DNA of 64,000 nucleotides from an uncultured Bacteroidales bacterium. Its GTDB lineage: Bacteria > Bacteroidota > Bacteroidia > Bacteroidales > Paludibacteraceae. The stretch's first letter is position 1. Each line of letters starts with the position of its first letter. Below, in pieces: positions 3,397-20,892 of this stretch. Below the pieces are notes generated by a model. That model was not told where the DNA came from, made no database searches, and worked only from the letters and a program-made list of their open reading frames with translations. The DNA lies in NCBI GenBank assembly GCA_949282265.1, contig CASDOZ010000003.1, positions 104,422 through 168,421 of the forward strand, read 5' to 3'. A program made the translations under genes and the position numbers.

Positions 3397-6300
3397 ATGA
3401 ATGTGTACAAAAGGCTCACAACGTACTTAATAGCAAGCATAAGTTGTTTACTAAGCGTACAAGCACAAACATCGTTCTTGTTTGACAACAACATGGCAGT
3501 ATTCTATCCTGTAGATTTCGATTCCACCCAAACATTGCCATCATTTGCCATAACCAAGAACCTCCTATACCAGAATGACGTACCTGAAACTTGGGAAATA
3601 CGTCCTGTATTCGGCACAACAGACGAAGGTAAAACTCTTGTTGAAATTGCTTTCGAAGAAGGTACTGATCTATATGGTACCGGACTTGTTATCGGTGACT
3701 TACGCAGAAATGGTTATGACATACCATTATGGAACAATGACAACTACGGATATTACAAACCCGGCCTATATCAATCCCATCCATGGATTATGGGAGTACG
3801 TCCAAACGGAAAGACATTCGGTATTATTGCAGATAACAGTTGGCGTTCCAACATTAATCTGTCCAATCCTATAAAGATAACCAGCGAAGGCCCATCTTTC
3901 CGTGTTATTGTCATTGAAAAAAACAATCCGATGGAAATGATGCAAGCACTCAGCGAATTGACAGGACACATCAATCTGCCTCCATTATGGGCAATCGGTT
4001 ACCATCAATCACGCTATAATCCTTCATATAAACCATCAGACGTATTATATATAACAAACGAGTTCAGACGTAGGCAACACCCATGTGATGTTATATGGTT
4101 TGATATCGACTATATGGATGGCAAACGCATTTTTACATATGATGCAACAAACTATTTCACGGCAGATGGTGTACCAAATCCTATTGCTATGAACGATTCG
4201 CTTCACAGCAAAGGCTTCAAAGCCGGCTACATCACAGACCCTGGCGTAAAAATAGATGAACAGTATAGTATATATCAGGAAGGAAATGAAGGAAATTATT
4301 GGGTATTAAACAAAGACGGCGAAGCCTATGAAGGTGAAGTATGGCCCGGTATGTGCCATTTTCCCGATTTTACACGCCCAGAAACACGTGAATGGTGGGG
4401 AGAACGCTATGGAGAATTTGTAAAAAACAATGATATAGACGGTGCATGGAACGACATGAACGAACCAGGAGTATTCAACACAGAGGAATGGACCATGCCG
4501 GTAGACAACCAACACCAAGGCGGCGGAGGATTGGCTGCTGGCCCACATATGCGTTATCACAACTTATATGGCTCACTTATGTCACAAGCCACCTACGAGG
4601 GAATCATTGAAGCAATACCGGAAAAGCGCCCATTCATATTATCACGCGCCAACCATCTTGGGGCACAACGCTATTGCGCCACATGGACTGGTGACAACCT
4701 TGACACATGGAAACATCTGAAACTGACTATTCCTATGTGTCTCAATCTTGGCCTTTCCGGACAACCATTTGGAGGTCCTGATGTCGGCGGATACGGACGT
4801 ATTGGAAATGCTGATTTAATGGGACATTGGTTTGCTCTAGCACCTTACTATCCATTTTCTCGCAACCACACTTCAGAACATGCACAAGAGCCATGGGCAT
4901 TCGGCAACAAAATTGAAACTGTTGCACGAAATGCCATCAATCGCCGCTATCATTTATTACCTTATTTCTATACACTATTCCACGAATCATCTAAAACAGG
5001 AATGCCTATCATGCGTCCTCTGTTTTTTGCCGATGTAACCAATGAAAATTTACGGGAAGAAAAACAAGCATTTTTATTAGGTAAAGACTTATTGATAATT
5101 CCACGTTGGGCAGTCAATCCGACCTTGCCTCAAGGTGATTGGGATGAACTTGCATTTGAAACAGAGGATGATGGGTATCAAGCCACGGTTGCTTTACGTC
5201 CAGGAGCCATACTACCTTGCTTGGGACATACCATACAAAGCACTGCGGAATATACCTGTGATTCCATTACATTGTATGTGAACCCTTTATCTGATGGCAA
5301 CGCAGAAGGATACATGTATGACGATGAAGGAGAAGGGTTTGACTATAAAACAGGAGCATACGCTTTACTGTCATTTAATTGTACAAATAAAGGAAATGAT
5401 TCCTTAGCCATTACCATCAGTCAAAGTGAAGGAACTTTTGTACGGCCAACAAGATATTTCCGCGTAGCGGTTGTCGGTGGAGAGACCATACAATATTCAG
5501 ATTGGAGCAATGAATTAGAAATTGTTGTCCCCAACGTATTAGATACAGTCAACACATTAGATACAAGCAAAATCGGAGTTTATTTCATTGCCGGTACCTT
5601 TACCAACTGGTTCAACGGAGACGAAGACAAAAGGTTAATGTTAAAAGATCCGTCAGAAGACGGAACCTTAACAAGCGACCGCCTCTATTTCGAAGCAGGA
5701 ACATATGAAATGAAATTTGCAAACACAGAAAATTGGACTGGATCTGACTGGGGTGCAGAAGAAGGTAACAACAGCCTGACAGGAACAGCTATAAAAGGAC
5801 CGGATGATGAGTGCAAGAACATCAAATTTACTATTGAAAAAGACGGAAGCTATTATATCACATTTAATCCGAAAACACTACAATATGCCATTGTACGCAC
5901 ATATGAATCCAACCAAAAAGAAATGTATATTGGAGGAACATTTAATAATTGGACAACAATGGCAGGCGTAATGAATCTAGTGGGAGACAACCAATGGGAA
6001 GCTACAAAGATCTATATTCCAGCCGGTCAACAAGAACTGAAATTTGCAAACACTTATGATTTCACTGGTGATGATTGGGGCAATGCGCAGGGTTTAAGTG
6101 GAACTGCTGTTCTATCTACAGGCGGAGACCCCAATTTAAGTTTTAACATCACAACAGCAGGAGAATATACCATACGTTTCAACGACAACACATTGGAGTA
6201 TAGTATCGAATTAACCTCTGGAATTGAAACTGGTATAAACGAAAACATCACGAAGCAAACCTATATTTATCCCAATCCAACCAATGACCTACTAAATGTC

Positions 6301-6480
6301 AATCTAAACAATGGAAAAGGCATAGTAGAAATTTATGCTATAAACGGCCAAATTGTTTTACGTAAACAACTGGATGCAAAATCATCTACACTTCATATTG
6401 CGCAATTGGCAAAAGGTACGTATCTTGTAAAACTTTTAGATGGAAAAGAAACATCCGTTCATAAACTCATAAAAGACTAA
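3397..6480 (+). CDS. Multidomain GH31 alpha-glucosidase with two glycan-binding-like modules and T9SS domain
   Basis: A 1027-residue secreted enzyme with a signal peptide (to about VQAQ, residue 24). The N-terminal beta-sandwich contains GTGLVIGDLRRNG. The GH31 barrel carries nucleophile Asp353 (GAWNDMNEPG) and acid/base Asp433 (TWTGDN), as in alpha-glucosidases of the family. After the barrel and its C-terminal sheets come two similar beta-sandwich modules starting near residues 726 (VYFIAGTFTNWF) and 843 (MYIGGTFNNWT); both resemble starch-binding SusE/CBM-type folds. The last 75 residues from about 953 (YPNPTNDLLNV ... GTYLVKLLDG) form a clear type A T9SS sorting domain. The gene lies 11 bp after the SusE/F-like gene and 18 bp before the GH97 gene, so the four are probably one operon for alpha-glucan breakdown outside the cell. 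The linkage preference is not determinable here. Confidence 0.93.
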   Translation: MNVYKRLTTYLIASISCLLSVQAQTSFLFDNNMAVFYPVDFDSTQTLPSFAITKNLLYQNDVPETWEIRPVFGTTDEGKTLVEIAFEEGTDLYGTGLVIGDLRRNGYDIPLWNNDNYGYYKPGLYQSHPWIMGVRPNGKTFGIIADNSWRSNINLSNPIKITSEGPSFRVIVIEKNNPMEMMQALSELTGHINLPPLWAIGYHQSRYNPSYKPSDVLYITNEFRRRQHPCDVIWFDIDYMDGKRIFTYDATNYFTADGVPNPIAMNDSLHSKGFKAGYITDPGVKIDEQYSIYQEGNEGNYWVLNKDGEAYEGEVWPGMCHFPDFTRPETREWWGERYGEFVKNNDIDGAWNDMNEPGVFNTEEWTMPVDNQHQGGGGLAAGPHMRYHNLYGSLMSQATYEGIIEAIPEKRPFILSRANHLGAQRYCATWTGDNLDTWKHLKLTIPMCLNLGLSGQPFGGPDVGGYGRIGNADLMGHWFALAPYYPFSRNHTSEHAQEPWAFGNKIETVARNAINRRYHLLPYFYTLFHESSKTGMPIMRPLFFADVTNENLREEKQAFLLGKDLLIIPRWAVNPTLPQGDWDELAFETEDDGYQATVALRPGAILPCLGHTIQSTAEYTCDSITLYVNPLSDGNAEGYMYDDEGEGFDYKTGAYALLSFNCTNKGNDSLAITISQSEGTFVRPTRYFRVAVVGGETIQYSDWSNELEIVVPNVLDTVNTLDTSKIGVYFIAGTFTNWFNGDEDKRLMLKDPSEDGTLTSDRLYFEAGTYEMKFANTENWTGSDWGAEEGNNSLTGTAIKGPDDECKNIKFTIEKDGSYYITFNPKTLQYAIVRTYESNQKEMYIGGTFNNWTTMAGVMNLVGDNQWEATKIYIPAGQQELKFANTYDFTGDDWGNAQGLSGTAVLSTGGDPNLSFNITTAGEYTIRFNDNTLEYSIELTSGIETGINENITKQTYIYPNPTNDLLNVNLNNGKGIVEIYAINGQIVLRKQLDAKSSTLHIAQLAKGTYLVKLLDGKETSVHKLIKD

Positions 6481-6492
6481 CCAATAAAATAA

Positions 6493-8670
<2,178 letters not shown>

Positions 8671-8745
8671 AACGGGAAATTATCAAACCGTTGGATAAGT
8701 GGAGACTGAAAAGAACGATTATCCAACATTTCACAGAAAAACAAC

Positions 8746-8775
8746 AGAGGTCGGCCTAAAAGCCGACCTCTTAAA
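8746..8775. terminator. Rho-independent terminator between the glucan cluster and the helicase gene
   Basis: A perfect 10-bp stem (8746-8755 with 8762-8771) closes a 6-nt loop and is followed by a T/A-rich tail. It ends the glucan operon and could also serve the converging helicase gene. The rest of 8671-8949 holds no gene that I can support. Confidence 0.8.
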
Positions 8776-8949
8776 ATAAAGGGAATTACAGCGGGAATAG
8801 CCAGTAATTCCTTTTGTTTTATCCTCTATATCAATGCAATATCGGGCAATGACAGATTATTCCATATATCCATATCGTCCGATCTTATATCTGGCAACAA
8901 AAAATCTTCCCGTTATTAATCACTTAATTTTCAATTTTTCCCATAAAAC

Positions 8950-11900
8950 TTACACATATCTGGCCAAAAAACCCAATGCCTTATCTTGGTTTGAATTATT
9001 CAATATATACGATTTATTGCCTACTATATATAATGCTTTGCGCGCACGAGTAACAGCAACATTCATAATGTTAGAACATGCCTCATCTATCCAACGAATT
9101 TTATTTATAGGAGAATTATTTGTTACCACTAAACTAATAATTATCATATCTCTTTCATCGCCTTGGAAAGCATGGACTGTATCGGCTGTAACACTATCTC
9201 TCAATTTTTCAGAAATCTTTTTATTTATTTCGGCAGCTTGATCTCGAAAAGGGGTGATTATGCCAATACTATATCTGTACTCCTCACATTTTTCCCGGGC
9301 CAATTCAAGCGTTTTAGAAACTTCTTTCTCATTTATATTAATTGTTGAATCCATTTGTTCCCCTTGTACATCTACCCACCAAATACCGTCGGTTCCATCT
9401 GCTACTGTATTAATTTCGAGATTACGTCCCAATCTTTTTCTATAAAAGAAATCATTTGAATAGCCTATTATTCGTGGATGACACCTATAATGTCCCGTAA
9501 GCATTATAGGTTTATTCACATCGTAAGCATTGGAAATAAAACTCGAGCAATAGTCCCAAAGAGATTCTTCCACATATTTCAAATTATTACATTCACTTAA
9601 ATTCAATTGATCAGCAATGATGTTTTCTTCTTCTGTTGTAACAGGAGTAATATGCTTTAACTGTAAAGGATCACCTATAACAACTATTTGCTTTGCCCTT
9701 GCCACCAAAGGAATAGCTGATGCTATATCACATTGGGATGCCTCGTCTATGATAACCATGTCAAATAAATCTTCCGCAATTGGGAATGCACTTTTAATAG
9801 ACAAACTAGTTACTGCATTTAATTTGAATACATCCAAGAATTCACTTGCATTTTGTACAAACTCATCTAATCGCTTCGGGTCTGTTGGAATATTATCGGG
9901 GATAAACTGTTTATACCTATTTACCTTTTGAATTGCATCTTTCTGATTAAGAGTTTCTATCAAACAATCAAACAATATATTTACACTATTTTGTTTGATA
10001 AAATTTATACAGTCATTCTTATCTATCTCCAACTGCTCTATTTTCTTCACACATGAAGCCAACGACGCATTACAAACGTCTATTTTCTTATTAATTGACT
10101 GTATCTGCTGATTTAATAATCTGTATTTTCGTTCTATTTCTTTTTTAATCAGAGCAATATCTATCAACAGTTTGTTAGCTTGTAGCATAACATTCAATGC
10201 AGTATCACTTTGAGCCAAAATTTCTCTAGTACTTTTAAAATCTTCAACCTTTTGTTTTAGCGGTAAGGTTCCAAAATAATTTCTGATAGTATATGGACAT
10301 TCAGCAATTGCCTGTAATAGCTCCATAATATATTTATTCTTGTTAAACAGAAGATTCCATAATTTTCTATAGCCAGTAAATTTATGGTACAATTTATTCC
10401 GTAATGACTGCATGATTATACAACAAGCATCCACATCTTTCTCTTTACAATCAATCACAAATGACCAAATGTCCTGATTGGATTTTTGTAATTCACTCAA
10501 TTCATTCTTACTCCACGACTTAAGATTAGCTACTCCTTCAACAAATCTTTTTAATTCATCTTGCAAGTTGCTTTTTTCATCCTCAAAACGTTTCTTTGTA
10601 TCAAGCTGTTTGTTATATTCTTTTTTTACTTCTTCCAGCAACTTCTTCTTTTCCAGGTATTCAGCATAAGCATTTGTTTCTAATGAAATTGGAGGACGAC
10701 GAATAAAATCATCTAAAGCTGATATTGTCGTTTTTCTTATATACTCCTTATGACCAAAACGCATCAGAAAATCATTGCTTCCTGTAATAGCATCAAAACG
10801 GTCTTTTACATTATCAACCGCCTTATTATTTTTACTTGCCACTAAAACTTTCTTTCCGCGAACCGCTGCATTAGCGAGAATATTTAAAATTACTTGAGTT
10901 TTCCCTGTTCCCGGAGGTCCGGTTATAACCGACAATTTATTGTTAAGTGCGTACAAAACAGCTTCTTCTTGATATTGATCCAAAGAGGTTATATGTAAAA
11001 TTTCATCCTTATCTACTAGCCCTCCATCCAATTGATTTGTAATAGGAGCTCTTAATAAAAAATCCTGCAACAAAGAATTCTTGTTTGCTATCCGATTCAA
11101 ATTCCAATTACTCACCTCTGAATAAGTTTGACTTATAGCTGGATTCTTTTGGCTTAAGGCTACGCATGCAATCTTTTCCAGAACAGCATCTTTCGAAACA
11201 ACTCGCTTTATGACTTCCTGCAATCCATCAAACGATGGCAACGGTTCTGTTGAAGAAATATATTCTGCTAACTTTTCCACATCTTCTGCAATAAGTCCTA
11301 GTTTATCAGCCTCTTGAATATTTACAGTAAAATCAGCAAAGTCAACAACCAGATCATCTTTTTGTATATCAAAATTCTTCAGAACTGATATATTAACAAT
11401 ATTATTGAATAAACGATACTTTTGTCTGTTGATTGATATACATAATCCTATATACAAATTAGCCGGCCATTTTGTCTTTTGCTCATCTAAATTGTCTTTA
11501 TACAAACTTACAAATTGCTGATTATTAATGAGTTTTAATATAAATGTATTCTCATCTTTATATCCCAATTCGTATTCATAAACATTTTTGACTTGTGGTT
11601 CTTTACTTCTTTCCAATTCCAAAGCCACCTTATAAAACAGCAAAATCTTATCTATTATACTTGCATTATTCTTAACATTATTCTGAACTAATTCTATTAA
11701 TCGCTTTATAGCCTTCTCATTAATCATATTCTTCGGTTTAATATAAAATTCCTTTCTTATAATTTCAATATTCAATTGTTCTTTCGTAAAAACCAGCATT
11801 TTAATTGTTCCACGTTCAGGCAACTGGCCACTACACCTACGAATGATGCTTTCATCATTAATTCCCATGTATTTAGCAAAAGCTTCTATACGTACACTTC

Positions 11901-12522
11901 CTATATTGGTAGGCCCAACGCAGAAAAAATAATTTTTCCCCTTAATCACACTGTTTACTAAAGACGACAAAGACTCTAAATTTATCGATGTTATATCCAG
12001 TATATTAGAAAAGAAATGCAAGGTTACACCTTGTTCCATCGGAAGATCTTCCGCCTTTAAATCATCTATAAACTTATTAACACACAACAAATTTTTATCA
12101 CTTTTCAGATAGGACCGCAAATGAATCTTTGCACGTCCCAATGCCTTACATGATGGTTCTATTAAGATTATTTTCTTTACATTTTCAAAGTTGATGCCAT
12201 TCTCCCTAAAATAATCCAAACAACAACAACTCGCAAGACCTTGGCCGCATCCCCAATCAACAATCGTAACATTTTGTACATAATATCTAAAAGAAGCCGG
12301 CAAAGCATTCAATGCAATACGTACTTTCTTCTCATGCATTTTCCCATACGACCACAGATATTGAGAAAGCAATTCATCCGTACGCAACAAATCAACACCA
12401 TGATTCAATCCTTTCCATGGACAATGACGCTTCTCTACAGACAATGTACTGTATGCGATTCGGATAAAATCATTAAAAACAGGATTCTCCAAATTTTCTA
12501 TTTGACTTTCATAATCAACCAT
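8950..12522 (-). CDS. Methyltransferase-like / superfamily 1 helicase fusion protein
   Basis: A 1190-residue cytoplasmic protein. Residues about 40-260 form a class I SAM-dependent methyltransferase-like fold: motif I is IVDWGCGQG with Asp89, followed by an acidic strand end in ILIEPS. No (D/N/S)PP(Y/F) motif of DNA adenine or cytosine-N4 methylases is seen. From about residue 515 the protein is a DNA2/UPF1-like SF1 helicase: Walker A GPPGTGKT (535-542), motif II DEASQ (Asp926), GDPLQL, GHYRCHP, HAFQGDERD and VTRARKALY. About 385 residues separate motifs I and II, and they include two Lys/Glu-rich coiled-coil stretches (roughly 620-690 and 790-850). The gene begins 9 bp after the DUF1848 gene, so the two are probably cotranscribed. 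The region is AT-rich (19 G/C in 10501-10560), which suggests acquisition. A role in nucleic-acid processing or phage defence is inference only. Confidence 0.85.
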   Translation of the reverse strand: MVDYESQIENLENPVFNDFIRIAYSTLSVEKRHCPWKGLNHGVDLLRTDELLSQYLWSYGKMHEKKVRIALNALPASFRYYVQNVTIVDWGCGQGLASCCCLDYFRENGINFENVKKIILIEPSCKALGRAKIHLRSYLKSDKNLLCVNKFIDDLKAEDLPMEQGVTLHFFSNILDITSINLESLSSLVNSVIKGKNYFFCVGPTNIGSVRIEAFAKYMGINDESIIRRCSGQLPERGTIKMLVFTKEQLNIEIIRKEFYIKPKNMINEKAIKRLIELVQNNVKNNASIIDKILLFYKVALELERSKEPQVKNVYEYELGYKDENTFILKLINNQQFVSLYKDNLDEQKTKWPANLYIGLCISINRQKYRLFNNIVNISVLKNFDIQKDDLVVDFADFTVNIQEADKLGLIAEDVEKLAEYISSTEPLPSFDGLQEVIKRVVSKDAVLEKIACVALSQKNPAISQTYSEVSNWNLNRIANKNSLLQDFLLRAPITNQLDGGLVDKDEILHITSLDQYQEEAVLYALNNKLSVITGPPGTGKTQVILNILANAAVRGKKVLVASKNNKAVDNVKDRFDAITGSNDFLMRFGHKEYIRKTTISALDDFIRRPPISLETNAYAEYLEKKKLLEEVKKEYNKQLDTKKRFEDEKSNLQDELKRFVEGVANLKSWSKNELSELQKSNQDIWSFVIDCKEKDVDACCIIMQSLRNKLYHKFTGYRKLWNLLFNKNKYIMELLQAIAECPYTIRNYFGTLPLKQKVEDFKSTREILAQSDTALNVMLQANKLLIDIALIKKEIERKYRLLNQQIQSINKKIDVCNASLASCVKKIEQLEIDKNDCINFIKQNSVNILFDCLIETLNQKDAIQKVNRYKQFIPDNIPTDPKRLDEFVQNASEFLDVFKLNAVTSLSIKSAFPIAEDLFDMVIIDEASQCDIASAIPLVARAKQIVVIGDPLQLKHITPVTTEEENIIADQLNLSECNNLKYVEESLWDYCSSFISNAYDVNKPIMLTGHYRCHPRIIGYSNDFFYRKRLGRNLEINTVADGTDGIWWVDVQGEQMDSTININEKEVSKTLELAREKCEEYRYSIGIITPFRDQAAEINKKISEKLRDSVTADTVHAFQGDERDMIIISLVVTNNSPINKIRWIDEACSNIMNVAVTRARKALYIVGNKSYILNNSNQDKALGFLARYV

Positions 12523-12531
12523 CTACTAAAT

Positions 12532-13590
12532 CTATCCCAATATACTTTCTACAAAAGGATTTTTCTTGTGGAACATCCAGTTTTCTATTGCAATGTCCTT
12601 ACTTGCATTCGCATAGCAATATTCACATAAATGAGGGCAAGTATTATATTCACCTATATCTTTACTTTTCATACATCCGCAAGCTATGCGTTGCCCCTTG
12701 TCCTTATTATTCTTTTTTATAATGGCATACAAATTGTTCTCTAAATAAATAGCATCTCCATCATAAAAGAGGAATGAAGGATTCCGATTATCAATAATTT
12801 CAACTCCAAGAAAATCCATTAATTTTTTGGACTTATAACCCAAACGCACCATAAGGCGGTCATCTATGCAATGATTATGTTCTACTCCATCTAAATCAAC
12901 AATCTCACCACAAGTTGCAATAACATAATTCCAACCTTTTGCTTTATTCATATAGACGAGTTTTTGCGCAAACTCTATCATTTGTTCCTTTGTCCAATCC
13001 ATATAATTAATATGGCCACGTTCAAGGTTTGATTTAACCTTGCGATATGATAATATATCTGCGAAGCTAAAAACCAGTTTCTCTGTATAACCTTTAAGTT
13101 GGTCACCTATGTATTCTATCTTTCGCAGAAGTTTATCACTATCAATTTTGTCTGTCAAAATAAGAGGGTCAAACCTCCAAATTACAGCCCCTTTACCAAG
13201 CCTGTCGACAAACATCTTAAATGTTTCTATACGTTCTTCAAGCGGAGGTACACCACGTTCCAACCCTTCATCTTCATAATTGTTAAGCGTGTATTGCACG
13301 TAACAACCAATGCCTCTCTCTTTTAAATAGTCAAGGTGTTTGAGAAGTGGACGAGGGTTCTTCGACCAAAAAACAATGAATTTCGTATCTTCATAGGCTA
13401 CATAGCTTTTCTTTCCATTGAATGGATTTGTCCATGCGGAATATCCTTTTTTAAGGCGTTCAAAAAACCAGTCTGCATAAAAAGCCGGGATGTCAGTACT
13501 CCGACTTGCAGATACAACAATGGGAAAAATGGCTTTAGCCATATCTTTATTGTCAAGTTTTATAAATCTATCTTCTTGTTTATTTGCCAT
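12532..13590 (-). CDS. DUF1848 family protein with C-terminal radical-SAM-like cysteine motif
   Basis: A 352-residue soluble protein matching the DUF1848 family: an N-terminal VVSASRSTDIPAFYADW segment followed by a probable TIM-barrel body (IVFWSKNPRPLL, VIWRFDPLI). The C-terminal end has a cysteine cluster: CGC at 304-306, then Cys318, Cys322 and Cys325 in CPHLCEYC. That spacing, CX3CX2C with an aromatic before the last Cys, is the [4Fe-4S] motif of radical SAM enzymes, but here it lies at the C-terminus rather than near the N-terminus, as is known for this family. No biochemical function is established for DUF1848. It is the first gene of a two-gene operon with the methyltransferase/helicase fusion. 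An alternative start is Met17 (13542). Confidence 0.85.
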   Translation of the reverse strand: MANKQEDRFIKLDNKDMAKAIFPIVVSASRSTDIPAFYADWFFERLKKGYSAWTNPFNGKKSYVAYEDTKFIVFWSKNPRPLLKHLDYLKERGIGCYVQYTLNNYEDEGLERGVPPLEERIETFKMFVDRLGKGAVIWRFDPLILTDKIDSDKLLRKIEYIGDQLKGYTEKLVFSFADILSYRKVKSNLERGHINYMDWTKEQMIEFAQKLVYMNKAKGWNYVIATCGEIVDLDGVEHNHCIDDRLMVRLGYKSKKLMDFLGVEIIDNRNPSFLFYDGDAIYLENNLYAIIKKNNKDKGQRIACGCMKSKDIGEYNTCPHLCEYCYANASKDIAIENWMFHKKNPFVESILG

Positions 13591-13771
13591 AAATATAATC
13601 TTATCTTTAGCTTCAAAACTTTTTTATCCAAGATATAAAAGGATTTTCAAATGATTGATTTTTCCTCAGTTCTTTTATAGGATTCACCTTTCCCAAGAGA
13701 TTCTTGCTAATTTTTGTGTTTCAGTTTCTCAGACTTTAAACTTACAAAAGCAATAAACACTCCTTTATTCT

Positions 13772-13804
13772 CAAACATATAGAATTGGCTTATCCAAATA
13801 CAAA
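13772..13804 (-). promoter_or_regulatory. Candidate promoter of the DUF1848-helicase operon
   Basis: On the minus strand, TATGTTTG (complement of 13772-13779) fits the TAnnTTTG -7 element. A TTTG (complement of 13801-13804) lies 21 bp upstream, in the range of the -33 element. This predicts a leader of about 175 nt before 13590. Confidence 0.45.
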
Positions 13805-13998
13805 ATTACTAAAAACATTTAGAAAAGAAGAATATACTACAAAAACATTTTTTTACTGATTAAAATAATCAATCCCTCGCAATGACAAATATCGCTCACC
13901 TACCGTAAATCGGCATACCAATGAGATATTTTATGTGAAGCAAAAACGGAGGATAGCAAAAATTCACACATTCCTGTCCAAACTACATACAAAAAACG

Positions 13999-14300
13999 TG
14001 GAGCCGGTCTGCCGCCCGTTCCACGATGTAAAGGCCTTCGCTTTTAGTCGAAACGAGCAACGTCGAAAGCCCCACGCTAATGTTTATGTATATTAATACC
14101 CATGCCCGCTTCCCCTATCATTCCATGACAAGGCGCAACAAGGGCTGTGTATAAACATCCCAAGGGACGTTCCCGTTGCTTTGGTTTTTGACTAACTCAT
14201 TGAAGTTAAGAATTTGCGAAGTTCTTACACCGTCAAAACAAAAGCGCCAGTAAACGTCTTTTCGTATGTATCCCCCACCCAACCTTACTGCCAAACAGCA
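13999..14300. other. Large structured intergenic region with imperfect inverted repeats
   Basis: The 13591-14471 gap (881 bp) has no supportable gene. Inside it, 14045-14088 and 14151-14190 form an imperfect inverted repeat (ATGTTTAT near 14081 against ATAAACAT near 14151, with AGCAACG-type matches further out). A local hairpin closes CGTGGA near 13998 with TCCACG near 14030. A stretch AAAGCCCCACGC resembles the core of the 180-bp palindromes at 50837-51016 and 53955-54140. It could be a non-coding RNA or a degraded mobile palindrome. I could not match it to tmRNA, RNase P or 6S RNA. Confidence 0.4.
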
Positions 14301-14439
14301 TCAGCGTGAGGAAAGCGCAAAGATAGTTATTCTTTATAATTTATTGTCTTAAAATTGGATGAATTCAAAAAATAAATACACTGCCGACCGGTCCTTTTTT
14401 TGCAAATCCCGGACGCCGCCTGCATTCAATAAAATCCCG

Positions 14440-14447
14440 TATCTTTG
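14440..14447 (+). promoter_or_regulatory. TAnnTTTG promoter element of the transglutaminase-like gene
   Basis: TATCTTTG, 24 bp before the ATG at 14472. It fits the Bacteroidota -7 element and supports the chosen start. Confidence 0.7.
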
Positions 14448-14471
14448 CAAGAAGATAAGGAATAACCAATC

Positions 14472-15851
14472 ATGCGGAACATCACATTTTTTCTGGCCTT
14501 GGCGTTTGCCTTGAACACACCGGCACAAGAGCATTACGCGCATAAAATATCGCCGACACGTTACGACTACACGCAGGTTGCGCAACAGATTACAGCCGGT
14601 TGCGACAGCAAATACAAGCAGGCTTATGCCATATACCGCTGGTTGTGCGACAACATCAGCTACGACACATCATACAACATCTACACCGCAGACGAATGTT
14701 GGGACAACCGCCGCGGCGTATGCCAGGCATACAGCGAACTGTTTTACCGCCTGGCCGAAGCCGTCGGGCTGAAAGCGCATATCATCACGGGCATCGGCAA
14801 GACACACGGCGGCCGCATGGAAAAACACGCATGGATTTTCGCCATCGTGGAAGGCGAAAGCACCGGCATTCTGATTGACCCCACCTGGGGAGCCGGTTCT
14901 GTGGACAACGGCACTTTCATACGAAACGAAAACGACGATTCATGGTTCCATGTCAGTCCTTACTGGAATATCTTCACGCATTTCCCCAACGATGAAACCT
15001 ACCAACTGCTGCCGCACCCCATCAGCCGCCAGCAATTCAATGCACTTCCCCCGATAGGACCGGCATGGGGCAAACTCGGTTTTGACGCACAAACCACATA
15101 CGACCGCTGCATGGCCGGCGACACGGATTTGCCCAAAGTTTACAACAGTGGCATGGGCATCATTTATCTCAATCAAGTCCCTGAGCAACAAACCTTGCGC
15201 GTAGGCACAAACTATCGTTTTGCCGTGCAGAAACTGCAACCCTGCGAACTGGCCATCATCTCAAACCAGACTGCCGTGACCACATGGCAACAACAGAATG
15301 GCGTTTACTATGTGGATTTTGTGCCCACAGAAGCCGGTGAATTGAATTTTGGATTCAGGCTGGGAAACGACCGTTCCTATACTACCGTGCTGGAATATAA
15401 AGTGGCGCGGCCCACTGCCTCCGACATGGCGCGTCTGGAAGCGGCAAACCCCACGGCCTTGCCGGAAATATCCGGCCTCAGGAATTTCAGTCCTGAAATG
15501 CTGGAAAAATACGCCATCGACACCCGTAAACTGCTGGCCGGTGTACGAAACGGCAGCATAGACGCATTACCTGAATTTTATAAAACCGATGGCCAATGTG
15601 CACTGGAAAATATCCCGCTCGACGGCACGCTGCAATGCGGGCAAAGCTACACTTTTACGCTGCGCCCCCGAAACGGGATTCAATGGGCGCTTGTCAACGG
15701 AAACACCTGGCACAAAAACTGGACAACCGACCCTGAAACCGGCAGCATGACCATGACCATAGTGCCCGACACCGCCGGCACTCTTGCTCTGGTCGTCCAG
15801 CTGCAACCGAATGCCTCTTATGAATACTGCTTGTGCTACCAGGTGCAATAA
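14472..15851 (+). CDS. Secreted transglutaminase-like (papain-fold) protein
   Basis: A 459-residue protein with a signal peptide (MRNITFFLALAFALNTPAQ). Residues about 35-165 form a transglutaminase-core domain, as in bacterial proteins related to eukaryotic transglutaminases and CYK3. The catalytic triad is visible: Cys84 in RRGVCQAYSELF, His119 in KHAWIF and Asp136 in LIDPTWGAG. Bacterial members are usually proteases or peptide-processing enzymes rather than cross-linkers. The C-terminal 290 residues look like beta-rich extracellular domains and have no clear family match. It stands alone, with its own TAnnTTTG promoter and a strong terminator. Substrate unknown. Confidence 0.85.
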   Translation: MRNITFFLALAFALNTPAQEHYAHKISPTRYDYTQVAQQITAGCDSKYKQAYAIYRWLCDNISYDTSYNIYTADECWDNRRGVCQAYSELFYRLAEAVGLKAHIITGIGKTHGGRMEKHAWIFAIVEGESTGILIDPTWGAGSVDNGTFIRNENDDSWFHVSPYWNIFTHFPNDETYQLLPHPISRQQFNALPPIGPAWGKLGFDAQTTYDRCMAGDTDLPKVYNSGMGIIYLNQVPEQQTLRVGTNYRFAVQKLQPCELAIISNQTAVTTWQQQNGVYYVDFVPTEAGELNFGFRLGNDRSYTTVLEYKVARPTASDMARLEAANPTALPEISGLRNFSPEMLEKYAIDTRKLLAGVRNGSIDALPEFYKTDGQCALENIPLDGTLQCGQSYTFTLRPRNGIQWALVNGNTWHKNWTTDPETGSMTMTIVPDTAGTLALVVQLQPNASYEYCLCYQVQ

Positions 15852-15891
15852 AGGAAAAACACGGGAGAGCCACAGGAAAATCCGCCAAACA

Positions 15892-15929
15892 AAAACCGGA
15901 TACATCGAAAAAACGATGCATCCGGTTTT
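15892..15929. terminator. Bidirectional terminator
   Basis: A 16-bp stem with one mismatch (15892-15907 with 15914-15929) closes a 6-A loop. The A-rich left flank and T-rich right arm let it end both the plus-strand transglutaminase transcript and the minus-strand tRNA transcript. Confidence 0.82.
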
Positions 15930-15934
15930 CTTCG

Positions 15935-16008
15935 TGACCCCGGCGGGATTCTAACCCACGACCTTCAGAACCGGAATCTGACGTTCTATACAGCTGAACT
16001 ACGGGGCC
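15935..16008 (-). tRNA. tRNA-Arg (anticodon CCG)
   Basis: The complement folds as a complete 74-nt cloverleaf: a 7-bp acceptor stem (GGCCCCG with CGGGGTC, one G-T pair), a D-arm, an anticodon stem TCAGA/TCTGA with loop TTCCGGT, and a T-arm with GGTTAGAATCC. The anticodon CCG reads the Arg codon CGG. The discriminator is A and CCA is not encoded. Confidence 0.96.
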
Positions 16009-16211
16009 TCGGTTGCGGATGCAAAAGTAGTAAAAAAGAACGAATATGCAACCATCCGCCGGACAAAATGTTTCCTGACCGGAAATACTTTATGTTTAAC
16101 ACAAAACCAATCCTGTTTTAAACAATTTGACATTCCAGCCTGTCATACACCGATATTTTTCAAACGATATAAAAATTTTATTTCAGTATATAATATTTTA
16201 ACAGAAAAACG

Positions 16212-16219
16212 TACCTTTG
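16212..16219 (+). promoter_or_regulatory. TAnnTTTG promoter element of the TonB receptor operon
   Basis: TACCTTTG, 57 bp before the ATG at 16276. The rest of 16009-16275 is AT-rich and shows no gene. Confidence 0.7.
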
Positions 16220-16275
16220 TCCGCGTTCCGGAAAATCGGAATATAAAACAATCATGTTACACTAACACTTATCTT

Positions 16276-18987
16276 ATGAAAAAAACATTTTGTCTGCTAT
16301 TATTGTTGGCATCAGTCCAATGGCTGTCGGCACAACATGTAGTAAAAGGCGTCGTGCTCGACAAGAGTACTAGCGAATCGCTTATCGGCGTAAGCATTTA
16401 CAACCCGGCCACAAGTGCCGGCACGGTAACCGATGTAGACGGCTATTTCGAGCTGAACATAGGACAAACGGAAGCTACCCTGCAGTTTTCCTACGTCGGT
16501 TACGTTACCCGCGAAATCAAAGTAACCGCCAACCGGACCAACCTGGGCAAGATTGAGATGGAAAGCGATGCCATTGGTTTGCAGGACGTTACGATAACTT
16601 CCTCGGTGGCCATACAGCGCAAAACGCCGGTAGCCGTATCCACCGTTACCGGACTCGAAATTGAAGAACGCCTGGGTTCACAGGAATTCCCGGAAATACT
16701 GAAAACAACCCCCGGAGTCCATGTGAACAGACAAGGAGGCGGTTTCGGCGACTCGGAGGCCTATATGCGTGGTTTCGACAACACAAACATTGCCGTCATG
16801 GTAAACGGTGTTCCCATGAACGACATGGAAAACGGCAACGTATATTGGAGCAACTGGGCAGGACTGAACGATGTCACCTCCACCATGCAGACACAACGCG
16901 GTCTGGGAGCATCCAAAGTATCGGCACCATCCGTGGGCGGAACTATCAACATCATCACGAAAGGAATAGATTCCAAGCGGGGAGGATCACTGCAATATGC
17001 CCTGGGCAACGATGGCTACAACAAGGTAGCATTCAGCGTATCTTCCGGACTGACCGAAAAAGGCTGGGCTTTCACGGTGCTCGGCTCAAGAACATGGGGC
17101 AACGGATACGTCCAGGGAACCGACTTTGAAAGCTACAATTATTTTGTAAACATAGCCAAACGAATCGGCGAATCACACCAGCTGTCACTCACGGCCTTTG
17201 GCGCACCACAAAAACATTACCAGCGCGACGGAGCACTGACCATGGCCGGATGGGAAGAAGTAGCCAAATACATGTCCGATGGCAAATCAAAATACCGCTA
17301 CAACGCCAGCTACGGATTTGACCAGAACGGACAACGCAAAACAGCGGACTACAATGAATACCACAAACCGCAGATTTCCTTGAACCACACCTGGCAAATA
17401 GACCACAAGTCATCACTCGCCACCGCACTCTACACTTCCATCGGCCGCGGCAACGGCTATTCCGGACAAGGAAACGACGAATTCTCCAACTATTCATACC
17501 AAAGCTGGTACGGCGCACGCTATGGTGAACTGAACACCACTTTCCGGAAAGCAGACGGAACATTCGACTACGGCGCCATATACGACATAAACAGCGCAAG
17601 CAACTACGGCTCCATGCTGATCATGTCCAAAAGCAAAAACTACCATAACTGGTACGGACTGCTTTCTACCTACACAAACAAGTTCGCCGAATACATCGAC
17701 TTCTATGCCGGACTCGACCTGCGCTACTACAAAGGCACACACACCAACGAAATCGTGGACCTCTACGGCGGAGACTACTACATGGACCCCGAACGCGGAG
17801 GCGTCAGCGTGGAAAACAATGCGGCCGCAGCCGACAAGGCATGGCGATACCAGAAACTTGGAATCGGAGACGTCGTGTACCGCGATTACGACAGCTACGT
17901 AGTGCAGGAAGGCGTATTCGCACAGGCGGAATACAACCGGGATGCATTCAACGTGTTCCTGGCCGGCTCCGTATCCTACACAAACTACTGGCGCTACGAC
18001 CGATTCTATTATGATGCCGAACATGCACGTTCGGAAACAGTCGGCTTCCTCGGAGGAACAGTGAAAACCGGTGCCAACTACAACATCAACAAATACAACA
18101 ACATATTTGTCAACGTAGGCTACATCTCCCGTGCACCGAAATTTGCATACGGCGCATTCATGCAGTCAACCACAAGCAATGCCATCAATGTAAACGCCAG
18201 AAACGAACAGGTCATGTCGGCCGAAATCGGATACGGATTCCACAACTCATGGCTGAGCGCAAACCTGAACGCCTACTTCACGGAATGGATGGACAAGACC
18301 ATGACCAAATCGGGAACCCTGGAAAACCAGGAAGAATACTACATGAACATGACCGGCGTAAACGCACGCCACATGGGCGTGGAACTCGACATCAAGGCAG
18401 AGCCGACCAAATGGTTGGAAATTACGGCCATGCTCTCATTGGGCGACTGGACATGGGACAGCGACAGCGTTGTGGGCTATGCCTATGACGCACACGGACA
18501 GGCACTCCGTCCCGACGGAACCATAACAACACCGGGCGCACCCGACCAGGCCTATGCCATCATCAACATGAAAGGCATACAGGCAGGCGGCTCGGCACAA
18601 ACAACAGCCGCCTTGGGAATGACCTTCAAACCCATGAAAGGCCTGCGCATCGGAGGCGACTACGTTCTCTATGACCGCAACTACGCTTACTACTCACTGT
18701 CAGGAAGCAACCTTTCACTCGGAAAAACCGTCAACGTGCTTGCACCATGGAAAATACCTACCGGCGGACAACTGGACCTGCGCGCATCATACCGCTTCCA
18801 AATGGGAAAACTGGATGCCGTCATTTCCGGCAACGTCAACAACGTCCTGAACCAATTCTACATAGAAAAAGCGTACAACCCAAGCTCCATCGTCTCCGGA
18901 AGCATCGCTGAAGCAAACCTGGACAACGTGTACATGTATTTCTCCACCGGACGCACATACAGCATACGTCTGAAAATTAATTTCTAA
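16276..18987 (+). CDS. TonB-dependent outer-membrane receptor with CarboxypepD-like N-terminal domain
   Basis: A 903-residue outer-membrane receptor. A signal peptide ends near LSAQ (20). It is followed by a carboxypeptidase-regulatory-like beta-sandwich (about 22-100, VVKGVVLDKSTSESLIGVSIYN ... in part), a plug domain (about 110-235, with GGGFGDSEAYMRGFDNTNIAVMVNG-type signatures in shorter blocks) and a 22-strand-type barrel ending in an aromatic-terminated strand (LKINF). Such proteins import substrates across the outer membrane with TonB energy. The downstream lipoprotein starts 18 bp after the stop and is probably its surface partner, in the manner of SusC/SusD pairs, though that partner is not a recognisable SusD. 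No substrate can be read from the context. Confidence 0.9.
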   Translation: MKKTFCLLLLLASVQWLSAQHVVKGVVLDKSTSESLIGVSIYNPATSAGTVTDVDGYFELNIGQTEATLQFSYVGYVTREIKVTANRTNLGKIEMESDAIGLQDVTITSSVAIQRKTPVAVSTVTGLEIEERLGSQEFPEILKTTPGVHVNRQGGGFGDSEAYMRGFDNTNIAVMVNGVPMNDMENGNVYWSNWAGLNDVTSTMQTQRGLGASKVSAPSVGGTINIITKGIDSKRGGSLQYALGNDGYNKVAFSVSSGLTEKGWAFTVLGSRTWGNGYVQGTDFESYNYFVNIAKRIGESHQLSLTAFGAPQKHYQRDGALTMAGWEEVAKYMSDGKSKYRYNASYGFDQNGQRKTADYNEYHKPQISLNHTWQIDHKSSLATALYTSIGRGNGYSGQGNDEFSNYSYQSWYGARYGELNTTFRKADGTFDYGAIYDINSASNYGSMLIMSKSKNYHNWYGLLSTYTNKFAEYIDFYAGLDLRYYKGTHTNEIVDLYGGDYYMDPERGGVSVENNAAAADKAWRYQKLGIGDVVYRDYDSYVVQEGVFAQAEYNRDAFNVFLAGSVSYTNYWRYDRFYYDAEHARSETVGFLGGTVKTGANYNINKYNNIFVNVGYISRAPKFAYGAFMQSTTSNAINVNARNEQVMSAEIGYGFHNSWLSANLNAYFTEWMDKTMTKSGTLENQEEYYMNMTGVNARHMGVELDIKAEPTKWLEITAMLSLGDWTWDSDSVVGYAYDAHGQALRPDGTITTPGAPDQAYAIINMKGIQAGGSAQTTAALGMTFKPMKGLRIGGDYVLYDRNYAYYSLSGSNLSLGKTVNVLAPWKIPTGGQLDLRASYRFQMGKLDAVISGNVNNVLNQFYIEKAYNPSSIVSGSIAEANLDNVYMYFSTGRTYSIRLKINF

Positions 18988-19005
18988 CCCGTAAAAAAAA
19001 TCATT

Positions 19006-20892
19006 ATGAAGAAAATATTCGGCCTCATGATATTACCGCTCCTGGCAGCCACTGCCGGATGCGAGGATTTCTACAGCGACAAACAATTGGACTACGAACA
19101 CACCATCACGGATGTCCAGAGTCTGAGCCATACGCTGGAAACAACCGACTACGCATACATTGCCGGACTCGAAACAAACAAACAACTCGCTTTGCAACAG
19201 GATGACGATTCCACCTGCTACAAAGCATTACAGGCACTGGCCAATACCAAATGTTTTTCCGACCTTGTACCCGCCGAACTGTTCATCCCGGCATTTATCA
19301 CGGAAAAATACCCGCAACTGAGCAGCGGCTCCCTCATGCGCATTACGCACAACACAACCCGGGCCCTGCCTGAATACATGCAGGACTTCGCGAACATCTC
19401 GGAATACACGCTCACCGACAGCGACTATGAATCGGTCTGGAAAGAATCCGTGCAGGCGTCCTACCTGACACCCGCCACACTGTCGCAAATTCCGCAAATC
19501 CTAGCCGCCGTGCAGGCACAAGAAGGCGAAATCATGGTTGTAAACTACATGTACGATGAAGTGGAACCAAGTGTCGGAGGCTCCGCCGAACAGCCCGAAA
19601 AACTGGCCATGGAAACCGCCGATTTCCAACGGTTGCTTGATTGGGTCATAGCCAATCAGGACAGCGGATATCTGGACACAAGAGACGACCCCATTACGGC
19701 CGAATACTATTTCGGCGCAGCCACCAGCTTTGCCAACATAAACAACAAAATTTCCACCTGGAAAAAATATTATGACCCGGACAGCCTGTACACCGACATG
19801 GACGATGCGGAAATGACACAACTGATGGCCGACCGACTGGCTTGGGGTATTGCCAATCTCGTTCTGCCGGAACACTATCCGACACCCGAAGCAAGCACCT
19901 ACATCGTTTCTTTTGACCGCTACACCGATGACGGAACAACCGAAGAAAACATTACCTTCACATATGAAAATGACCGGTTTGGTGCAACAGCATGCTCATA
20001 CGCAAGCCCATCCGGCACATTCCAGCCGGAAACCCGAGCGCAGGACATAACCGCCAACCGGGCCGCCGTGTATGTGCTCCAAAACGGCCTGTGGAAAGCC
20101 TACAAAACAGACGATGCCAATGTAACAGCCATCCCCCAACCGGTTTACAACGCATTGGGCGGAAACACCATCAGCAAACCGCAAGACATTATCCCTGTTT
20201 TCCTGTCGCAAACTTATCCGTACGCACAATCCGACGACACGTATGCCGTCATCTACAACAGCGAAAACGGAATGACCATAAGCGAATTCAGCTACGACGG
20301 CAGCAACTGGAACATGACTACCGATATCAAAACGGCCGTGCTGACCTTTGAACTGGCCGAACAACAATGGGTTGCCAAACAAAACCTGTATCTCTCGGAA
20401 ACATTCGCCGACAACCGGCAGGGAGACTTTACCATACAGGATGTTGCCCTGGATGGACTTTCCTACGTATGGGCCACAAGCAGCAGCTACGGCATGAAAG
20501 CATCGGCCTACGTCGGTGGCAACCATGCTACGGAAAGCTGGCTGATCTCACCGCTCATCGACCTGAAAGATGCCATGAATCCGGTGTTGAGTTTTGACCA
20601 GGCCGTCAACTACACCAAAGCATTTACCGATGAATGCTTCATCATGATATCAACCGACTTTGCCGGTGATGTTACCGCATGTTCATGGAAACATCTGCCG
20701 TTCAACAAGGATGAAAACGATGCCTATATGGTTCCACCCGGAAACAACTGGGATTTCATGAACACAGGCAATCTGAGTTTGAGCGACTACTGCGGAAAAG
20801 TAATTACCATCGCTTTCAAATATACCAGTTCCGCAACAACATCTGCCACTTGGGAAATCAAGAACTTAGTCGTACAAGAAGAAATGGAATAA
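19006..20892 (+). CDS. Surface lipoprotein with C-terminal choice-of-anchor J-like domain
   Basis: A 628-residue lipoprotein with a signal peptide and lipobox AATAGC (lipidated Cys19). The first ~450 residues are not a family I recognise; they are rich in acidic and aromatic residues. The last ~165 residues (LSETFADNRQGDFT ... SWLISPLIDLKDA ... ATWEIKNLVV) resemble the choice-of-anchor J / cleaved-adhesin beta-sandwich found in Bacteroidota surface proteins that bind glycans or proteins. Coupling to the upstream TonB receptor (18-bp gap) suggests that it captures the receptor's ligand at the surface. This role is inferred from position. Confidence 0.78.
   Translation: MKKIFGLMILPLLAATAGCEDFYSDKQLDYEHTITDVQSLSHTLETTDYAYIAGLETNKQLALQQDDDSTCYKALQALANTKCFSDLVPAELFIPAFITEKYPQLSSGSLMRITHNTTRALPEYMQDFANISEYTLTDSDYESVWKESVQASYLTPATLSQIPQILAAVQAQEGEIMVVNYMYDEVEPSVGGSAEQPEKLAMETADFQRLLDWVIANQDSGYLDTRDDPITAEYYFGAATSFANINNKISTWKKYYDPDSLYTDMDDAEMTQLMADRLAWGIANLVLPEHYPTPEASTYIVSFDRYTDDGTTEENITFTYENDRFGATACSYASPSGTFQPETRAQDITANRAAVYVLQNGLWKAYKTDDANVTAIPQPVYNALGGNTISKPQDIIPVFLSQTYPYAQSDDTYAVIYNSENGMTISEFSYDGSNWNMTTDIKTAVLTFELAEQQWVAKQNLYLSETFADNRQGDFTIQDVALDGLSYVWATSSSYGMKASAYVGGNHATESWLISPLIDLKDAMNPVLSFDQAVNYTKAFTDECFIMISTDFAGDVTACSWKHLPFNKDENDAYMVPPGNNWDFMNTGNLSLSDYCGKVITIAFKYTSSATTSATWEIKNLVVQEEME

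Follow-up and report, generated by a model that had tools for sequence, protein, structure and literature searches.

Why does a gene of the DUF1848 family stand next to a methyltransferase-helicase fusion gene, and do the two form a unit? The question is raised by a stretch of 64,000 nucleotides from an uncultured Bacteroidales bacterium of the Paludibacteraceae (assembly GCA_949282265.1, contig CASDOZ010000003.1, positions 104,422 to 168,421; hereafter the window), in which two minus-strand open reading frames (ORFs) are separated by 9 bp. The upstream member of the pair (12532..13590) encodes a DUF1848 protein of 352 residues, and the other (8950..12522) a protein of 1190 residues whose N-terminal domain (residues 1-260) we name MTL. 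A first-pass annotation had described them as a two-gene module, and our survey finds both ORFs at these positions and the module in unrelated genomes. The conserved unit, however, is DUF1848 or AlkB together with the MTL domain, and the helicase belongs to a set of partners that replace one another. We suggest, as a reading that falls somewhat short of probable, that this is a mobile, defence-associated module which writes and erases a nucleic-acid mark, with DUF1848 as an oxygen-independent counterpart of AlkB; its catalysis, substrate, direction and anti-phage purpose are what we infer.

The MTL domain and its pairing with DUF1848 or AlkB

MTL, the recurrent element of the module, is encoded at 11743..12522 (minus strand). 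Pfam gives weak N-terminal methyltransferase matches on the 1190-residue protein, none of them over the cut-off. The MTL alignment shows the motifs DWGCGQG, LIEPS and HxFSNxLD, with D89, G91, C92, G93, Q94, N173 and D176 invariant (78/78 sequences) and E122 kept in at least 90%. An AlphaFold2 model built from the 78 sequences (predicted local distance difference test, pLDDT, 91.3; predicted template modelling score 0.90) gave 202 matches in the PDB at E 0.001 or better, and the best 50 of these 202 are nearly all methyltransferases. As modelled, therefore, MTL is a class I S-adenosylmethionine (SAM) methyltransferase with a Rossmann-like fold, a motif I and an acidic motif II, as the first-pass annotation had supposed. 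Activity seems likely, because these seven residues are invariant in the 78 sequences. Searching PDB sequences with the MTL profile yielded no convincing relative, and a search of viral structures with the model returned general methyltransferases and capping enzymes.

When the whole 1190-residue protein was compared with 395 genomes of the phylum, 34 were matched, mostly over the motor only, and in three of them (G076, G284 and G374; G and L numbers are our handles for genomes and loci) parts of residues 1-260 were matched but the motor was not shared. Read from such MTL-range matches, the domain is present in 4/395 genomes, namely these three and the window's own. The whole protein found no match in the collections of genome contigs and viral contigs, in which the alignment of the MTL domain did find relatives. 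The set of loci was accordingly built on the domain: the best 80 of 216 relatives from a GTDB genome scan with a four-row MTL alignment, three viral contigs, one of two Moraxella plasmids matched, one phage-labelled metagenome contig, two loci from a class search (4/395 genomes with MTL, including the window's own and G076) and the three seeds L036-L038. After removal of near-duplicates, and with the window excluded, 86 MTL loci were obtained.

DUF1848 or AlkB is directly adjacent to MTL, or fused with it, at 73/86 loci (71/83 without the seeds), and lies on the same strand within 6 kb at 81/86 (79/83 without the seeds). Gaps between the MTL gene and the adjacent AlkB or DUF1848 gene have a median of 3 bp and are at most 30 bp in 65 of the 72 measured. 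By comparison, MTL was found within 1.5 kb of DUF1848 at 0/30 of the best-scoring DUF1848 loci of the phylum sample, and DUF1848 or the AlkB family of the module in 0/18 arbitrary 16-kb control regions. The pairing is therefore beyond chance. According to the record titles, the loci belong mainly to Bacteroidota, with others in Chloroherpeton, Kapaibacterium, Ignavibacteriales, Bacillota, Clostridiales, Eggerthellaceae, Ellagibacter, Denitrovibrio and Moraxella, so that the association extends over several phyla, well beyond the lineage of the window. At one locus (L066, 6957-10369) DUF1848 and MTL are fused in a single reading frame.

These data also bear on the simplest alternative, that an ordinary DUF1848 gene stands beside a helicase by chance. 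DUF1848 does occur without MTL, being far commoner (75/395 genomes of the phylum sample) and free of MTL at the 30 loci just mentioned. The adjacency in several phyla, the short gaps and the fused ORF contradict such an explanation, which the recurrence refutes and which we regard as extremely improbable.

Exchange of the helicase and other partners

The fusion gene was delimited by ORF calling, Pfam, PADLOC and helicase motifs. Its UPF1-like superfamily 1 (SF1) core occupies residues 506-1190 (8953..11007, minus strand), with AAA_11/AAA_12 motor domains of UPF1 type at residues 514-1170 in Pfam, and all six SF1 motifs sought were found (GPPGTGKT, DEASQ, GDPLQL, HYRCH, DTVHAFQGDE and VAVTRAR), in agreement with the complete SF1 helicase that had been claimed. 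Among solved structures its closest relatives by sequence are the helicases SMUBP-2 (SMUBP2), UPF1 and SEN1. Between MTL and the motor lies a middle region (residues 261-505; 11008..11742, minus strand) which, by sequence comparison, is partly common to helicases without MTL. Three such close helicases (L033-L035) share 35-39% identity with the window motor over the aligned parts, and two of them (L033 and L034) are alike in the middle region as well. All three carry a NERD nuclease domain at the end in question; MTL hence occupies the position of its relatives' nuclease domain, which by analogy may count toward an effector role of MTL.

Partner types were assigned by Pfam on representatives. 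Across the 86 loci we found a DpdF/RecQ-like SF2 helicase at 54, a UvrD-like motor at 9, a UPF1-like motor at 7, an ART/macro-linked arrangement at 6, leucine-rich repeats (LRR) at 2, an FGE domain at 1 and no recognised partner at 7. Helicases thus make up most of the partners (70/86). Of the seven loci without a recognised partner, two (L054 and L082) are truncated where their contigs end, and another, L060, really has a UPF1-like motor. In L060 (217-4494) this helicase precedes MTL, which is C-terminal, so the domain order is reversed. MTL is fused to BspA-type LRR repeats or to FGE-sulfatase, with no helicase, in L117 (7983-9674), L113 (7860-10115) and L038 (8709-11573); in the last of these, from G374, a DUF1848 gene stands directly before the MTL fused to FGE-sulfatase domains. 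On the MTL tree (87 rows, inferred by a quick method, with the long branches of L038 and L045 unsafely placed) the partner type switches at least 5 times. The window MTL groups with the UPF1-type rows, nearest to L047 (47% identity); in this group L047, L049-L052 and L061 are accompanied by DUF1848 and L053, from Flavobacterium, by AlkB.

The kinship of the window motor with SMUBP2, UPF1 and SEN1 might suggest that the module responds to phages or toxins that attack tRNA, rRNA or mRNA, by modifying or repairing RNA. Schlafen (SLFN) AlbA_2-type genes at 8/83 loci fit this proposal, as does the fact that ALKBH3-like enzymes act on RNA too. The DpdF/RecQ-like and UvrD-like motors are commoner partners, however, and are usually DNA enzymes, and the BREX and restriction-modification (RM) company described below is DNA-directed; we therefore consider a role in RNA decidedly unlikely.

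AlkB and DUF1848 as alternates

Between the AlkB-bearing and the DUF1848-only state the MTL tree requires 7 changes or more, some of them being additions of AlkB to DUF1848 and not replacements. Both states are found within UPF1-, DpdF- and ART/macro-type modules. The AlkB proteins of the module retain H126, D128, H183, R195 and R201 (24/24), which we take to be the expected catalytic residues, and the AlkB of L036 is closer to ALKBH3 (1e-38) and ALKBH2 (5e-35) than to E. coli AlkB (2e-4) among solved structures.

These features would also suit a cassette for the repair of alkylation or photodamage, in which a duplex or RNA is opened by the helicase, the lesion is directly reversed by AlkB or DUF1848, and MTL, instead of making the lesion, helps to recognise or regulate. 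The likeness of the L036 enzyme to ALKBH2/3, the retained residues and the predominance of helicases among the partners agree with it, and there is a precedent in human ALKBH3, an AlkB-type demethylase that works with the helicase ASCC3 (PMC7608686, abstracts); unlike the module, this is a human repair complex with a Ski2-like motor, in whose abstracts no methyltransferase is named. Repair leaves unexplained the invariant methyltransferase with its conserved SAM motif, the LRR or FGE partners that lack a helicase and the embedding in BREX operons, and seems unlikely to us.

The distribution of the two enzymes may follow oxygen. We compared 50 loci from 48 genomes with COX1 (haem-copper oxidase) over the cut-off as a proxy: COX1 is present in 22/22 genomes with an AlkB-bearing module and in 3/26 with DUF1848 only (Fisher p 8e-11, a contrast confounded by phylogeny), bearing in mind that COX1 is an imperfect proxy and that incomplete metagenome-assembled genomes may hide genes in the COX1 and AlkB counts. 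No AlkB was detected anywhere in the 26 DUF1848-only genomes or in the window's genome, and the latter also shows no COX1 at E 1e-30 (assembly 89% complete). Seven loci possess both AlkB and DUF1848 (L068, L075, L076, L082, L086, L088 and L119), all of them in COX1-positive genomes.

The DUF1848 protein of the window itself matches Pfam PF08902 with 295.8 bits (cut-off 30.5; E 4.8e-88) over profile positions 1-262 of 262, and its AlphaFold2 model (pLDDT 93.7) alternates strands and helices. Near the C-terminus (residues 304-327; 12610..12681, minus strand) it contains a CxC followed by a radical-SAM-like CxxxCxxC, the motif reported by the first-pass annotation, and the five cysteines (C304, C306, C318, C322 and C325) are invariant in 58/58 aligned members. 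It is a candidate eraser and possibly a radical-SAM-like enzyme. The family was absent from the literature searched and is, by its Pfam name, one without known function.

Association with BREX and restriction genes

Recurrent neighbours of MTL at 83 loci include PglZ (12), BrxL (10), PglX (8), HsdR (7) and BrxC (4), counted by models derived for the most part from the clusters of neighbouring genes that recur. The restriction genes that the first-pass annotation had proposed to look for do occur, at least one BREX/RM gene being found at 21/83 MTL loci against 0/18 control regions (p 0.02, the families counted having been picked from the case set). The module is placed between PglX and PglZ, inside the BREX operon, in 8 loci (L083, L095, L096, L114, L088, L115, L118 and L119), and after BrxL in L102, L090 and L099; it looks like a BREX accessory rather than a core part.

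This company raises the possibility of a restriction-like system that marks self, as BREX, Dpd and DISARM do: MTL and its partner would build a hypermodified host base, and the helicase would attack unmarked DNA. The neighbouring BREX and type I RM genes and the DpdF-like helicase of the commonest form (checked on L036) are in favour of it. Where the module lies within BREX, however, that system already has a methylase of its own, PglX; the alternation of AlkB and DUF1848 is easier to understand for a removal step than for the making of one defined product; and the stand-alone, LRR and FGE forms of MTL have no motor of their own for such an attack. We hold this explanation to be rather unlikely.

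In L115, L118 and L119 the PglX-PglZ slot is filled by a mini-helicase, an ART-ARG protein and MTL. The same cassette, composed of a mini SF1 helicase, a 2CompART-2CompARG fusion and an MTL with an unassigned N-terminal domain, was observed in L106, L125 and L037 too; AlkB or DUF1848 lies upstream where visible, and in L106 the cassette is beside a type IIG enzyme. A kinase-VWA-PP2C set, which resembles the TerY-P triad, is near the module in L090, L097 and L099. The Schlafen AlbA_2-type genes were recognised by a neighbour-cluster model (with Pfam run on L094 only) in L094, L117, L048, L049, L062, L107, L052 and L116. On a Moraxella osloensis plasmid (L045, 5754-11473), a few genes separate a stand-alone MTL and its AlkB from an antiviral radical SAM gene of the viperin family.

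A possible mechanism

In the mechanism that we propose, MTL, usually carried on an SF1 or SF2 helicase, would mark the nucleic acid engaged by the helicase with a methyl group, most likely at a base, and the neighbouring AlkB or DUF1848 would remove the mark or lesion from molecules that are to be spared. AlkB would do so with O2 and 2-oxoglutarate, and DUF1848 without oxygen, by means of an Fe-S cluster bound by its cysteines. Since the one chemistry would depend on oxygen and the other would be free of it, each may substitute for the other in different hosts. The window would then hold the form of the module made up of DUF1848 and an MTL-UPF1-helicase. A constant methyltransferase combined with interchangeable motors and interchangeable partners of demethylase type makes a write-and-erase pair the simplest account, and the 2CompART-2CompARG protein in some MTL operons can by analogy be seen as a parallel pair of writer and remover.

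A more specific version, which strikes us as unlikely, takes DUF1848 as an oxygen-independent nucleic-acid demethylase that together with MTL constitutes a poison-antidote defence. Here the MTL-helicase fusions would inflict methyl lesions that block replication or translation on the nucleic acid of the invader, the partner would clean the host, and the motor would be swapped as freely as the eraser.

Several observations weigh against the reading of the module as a writer and eraser of a mark with DUF1848 in the place of AlkB. The modelled fold of MTL singles out no substrate, and the quick tree leaves 31 of its 83 inner branches open. Neither AlkB nor DUF1848 is present at 5/86 loci: in L037, L054 and L060 the contig breaks off on one or both sides of MTL, L097 is a short copy with integrase-like genes behind it, and L113 is an LRR fusion. 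The independent oxygen contrasts number 2 or 3 on supported branches (none of them contrary) and 5 or 6 on all branches, which is not significant. Furthermore, COX1 is carried by 371/395 genomes of the phylum sample, among them 59-63 of the 75 that bear DUF1848 (read off two listings), so that DUF1848, taken as a whole, is not restricted to genomes lacking COX1. Loci with both enzymes fit facultative hosts but equally two substrates, and the genomes of two DUF1848-only loci, L047 and L125, have an AlkB-bearing module as well (these genomes were counted as AlkB-bearing). As for the company of the module, none of the BREX/RM families counted is seen at 62/83 loci, and the choice of these families from the case set favours the cases.

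The chemistry assigned to DUF1848 is weighed down in the same way. A Foldseek search of the PDB with its model returned nothing at E 0.001 or better; the radical-SAM protein Elp3 appeared at probability 1.00, E 0.013 and TM 0.32, amid unrelated folds and barrels, and the Pfam Radical_SAM model scores 16.0 bits, below its cut-off of 29.5. We also considered DUF1848 as a circularly permuted radical-SAM enzyme, and rearranged sequences with the cysteine stretch moved to the front gave no support: against radical-SAM models nothing matched past a 22-residue cysteine stretch (rSAM_PA0069), and that in one of three. PA0069-type radical-SAM proteins were retrieved from only 2/31 genomes. Because the Foldseek search lacks a match at E 0.001 and the rearranged sequences are nearly matchless, radical-SAM membership of DUF1848 is a lead, not a result.

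Relation to described systems

The motor resembles that of Mokosh, with a PADLOC MkoC match at E 1.2e-63. The best of the two matched stretches, however, joins MkoC 663-962 of 1136 to residues 912-1189 of the protein, which is the motor, and MTL lies outside; a full-length MkoA or MkoC match with the other domains is not seen in the 1190-residue protein. To our knowledge, Mokosh includes neither DUF1848 nor AlkB. NERD-helicase proteins (L033-L035; PADLOC C3a187, NERD plus UvrD) share the motor of the window, and the UvrD motor of L116 matches C3a187, whereas they have the NERD nuclease in MTL's place and no DUF1848 was found in the L033-L035 stretches (AlkB was not sought there). Likeness to either group is hence confined to the motor, or for NERD helicases to the motor and the middle region; a helicase belonging to a described system, which the first-pass annotation had named as a refutation of its new module, is thus not what these matches show.

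BREX shares an operon with the module elsewhere, whereas none of its counted families is among the scanned genes of the window, where PglX, PglZ, BrxC and the like are thus not seen. Dpd, which puts 7-deazapurine into DNA, has a DpdF-like SF2 helicase as does the commonest MTL fusion; the annotated neighbour clusters yielded no further Dpd gene, and the window form has another motor. DarTG and 2CompART-2CompARG follow a comparable logic of a modifying enzyme and its remover, and an ART-ARG protein is in the MTL operon at 6 loci, but we propose methylation instead of ADP-ribosylation and claim no homology. DUF1848 is already listed as defence-associated among the defence-associated reverse transcriptases (PADLOC RTasDUF1848, E 1.5e-39); its companion there is a reverse transcriptase, and none was found among the four other window genes scanned. 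PADLOC 2023 has an AlkB-like CARF_2OG model as well.

No Pfam, NCBIfam or PADLOC 2023 model that matched covers the combination, newer defence catalogues being outside this scope, which agrees with the initial impression that no named system has this architecture. Nor did we find a description of MTL with AlkB or DUF1848 in the literature searched, whose partial coverage leaves absence from print unproven; AlkB does not appear in the passages of PMC10853773 consulted. The alternation of DUF1848 and AlkB beside one methyltransferase gives DUF1848 a concrete, testable chemistry. If this is right, it would mean that nucleic acids can be freed of methyl lesions by an anaerobic route, and that a defence can use a methylase as its weapon with a demethylase as antidote. 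Being compact and present in BREX, restriction and stand-alone contexts alike, the module should be testable in laboratory strains.

The variable segment in the window

The module has a GC content of 33.5%, compared with 47.7% for the window outside 8791-13986, so the AT-richness noted at first holds. In the congeneric genome G778 the variable segment 8791..13986 is absent from the same site and replaced by 3.4 kb of other genes, a difference in content that agrees with the acquisition suggested at first. These genes form another candidate defence cassette, 2 of the 3 ORFs scanned there matching the PADLOC candidates PDC-M45 or PDC-M19. The flanks are shared, at 98.9% over 13987-20789 and 77% over 3459-8790. 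No convincing flanking repeat was seen at the boundaries of the segment. A tRNA-Arg gene is located at 15934-16008, about 2 kb from the segment, with no link established. Four neighbouring genes of the window scanned by Pfam encode two glycosidases, a transglutaminase-like protein and a TonB-dependent receptor.

The window's genome has a second DUF1848 gene (L043, contig C16 of G000, 9122-10279), 53% identical to the first, which adjoins an AAA_14/DUF4143 ATPase matching PADLOC PDC-S01. We rejected it as a second module, its neighbours being this ATPase and a pyruvate:ferredoxin oxidoreductase. Finally, at the module's site in a congeneric genome (L168, 6800-10151), genes for DUF488, dual-OB (DuOB) and weakly HAD-like proteins are present instead.

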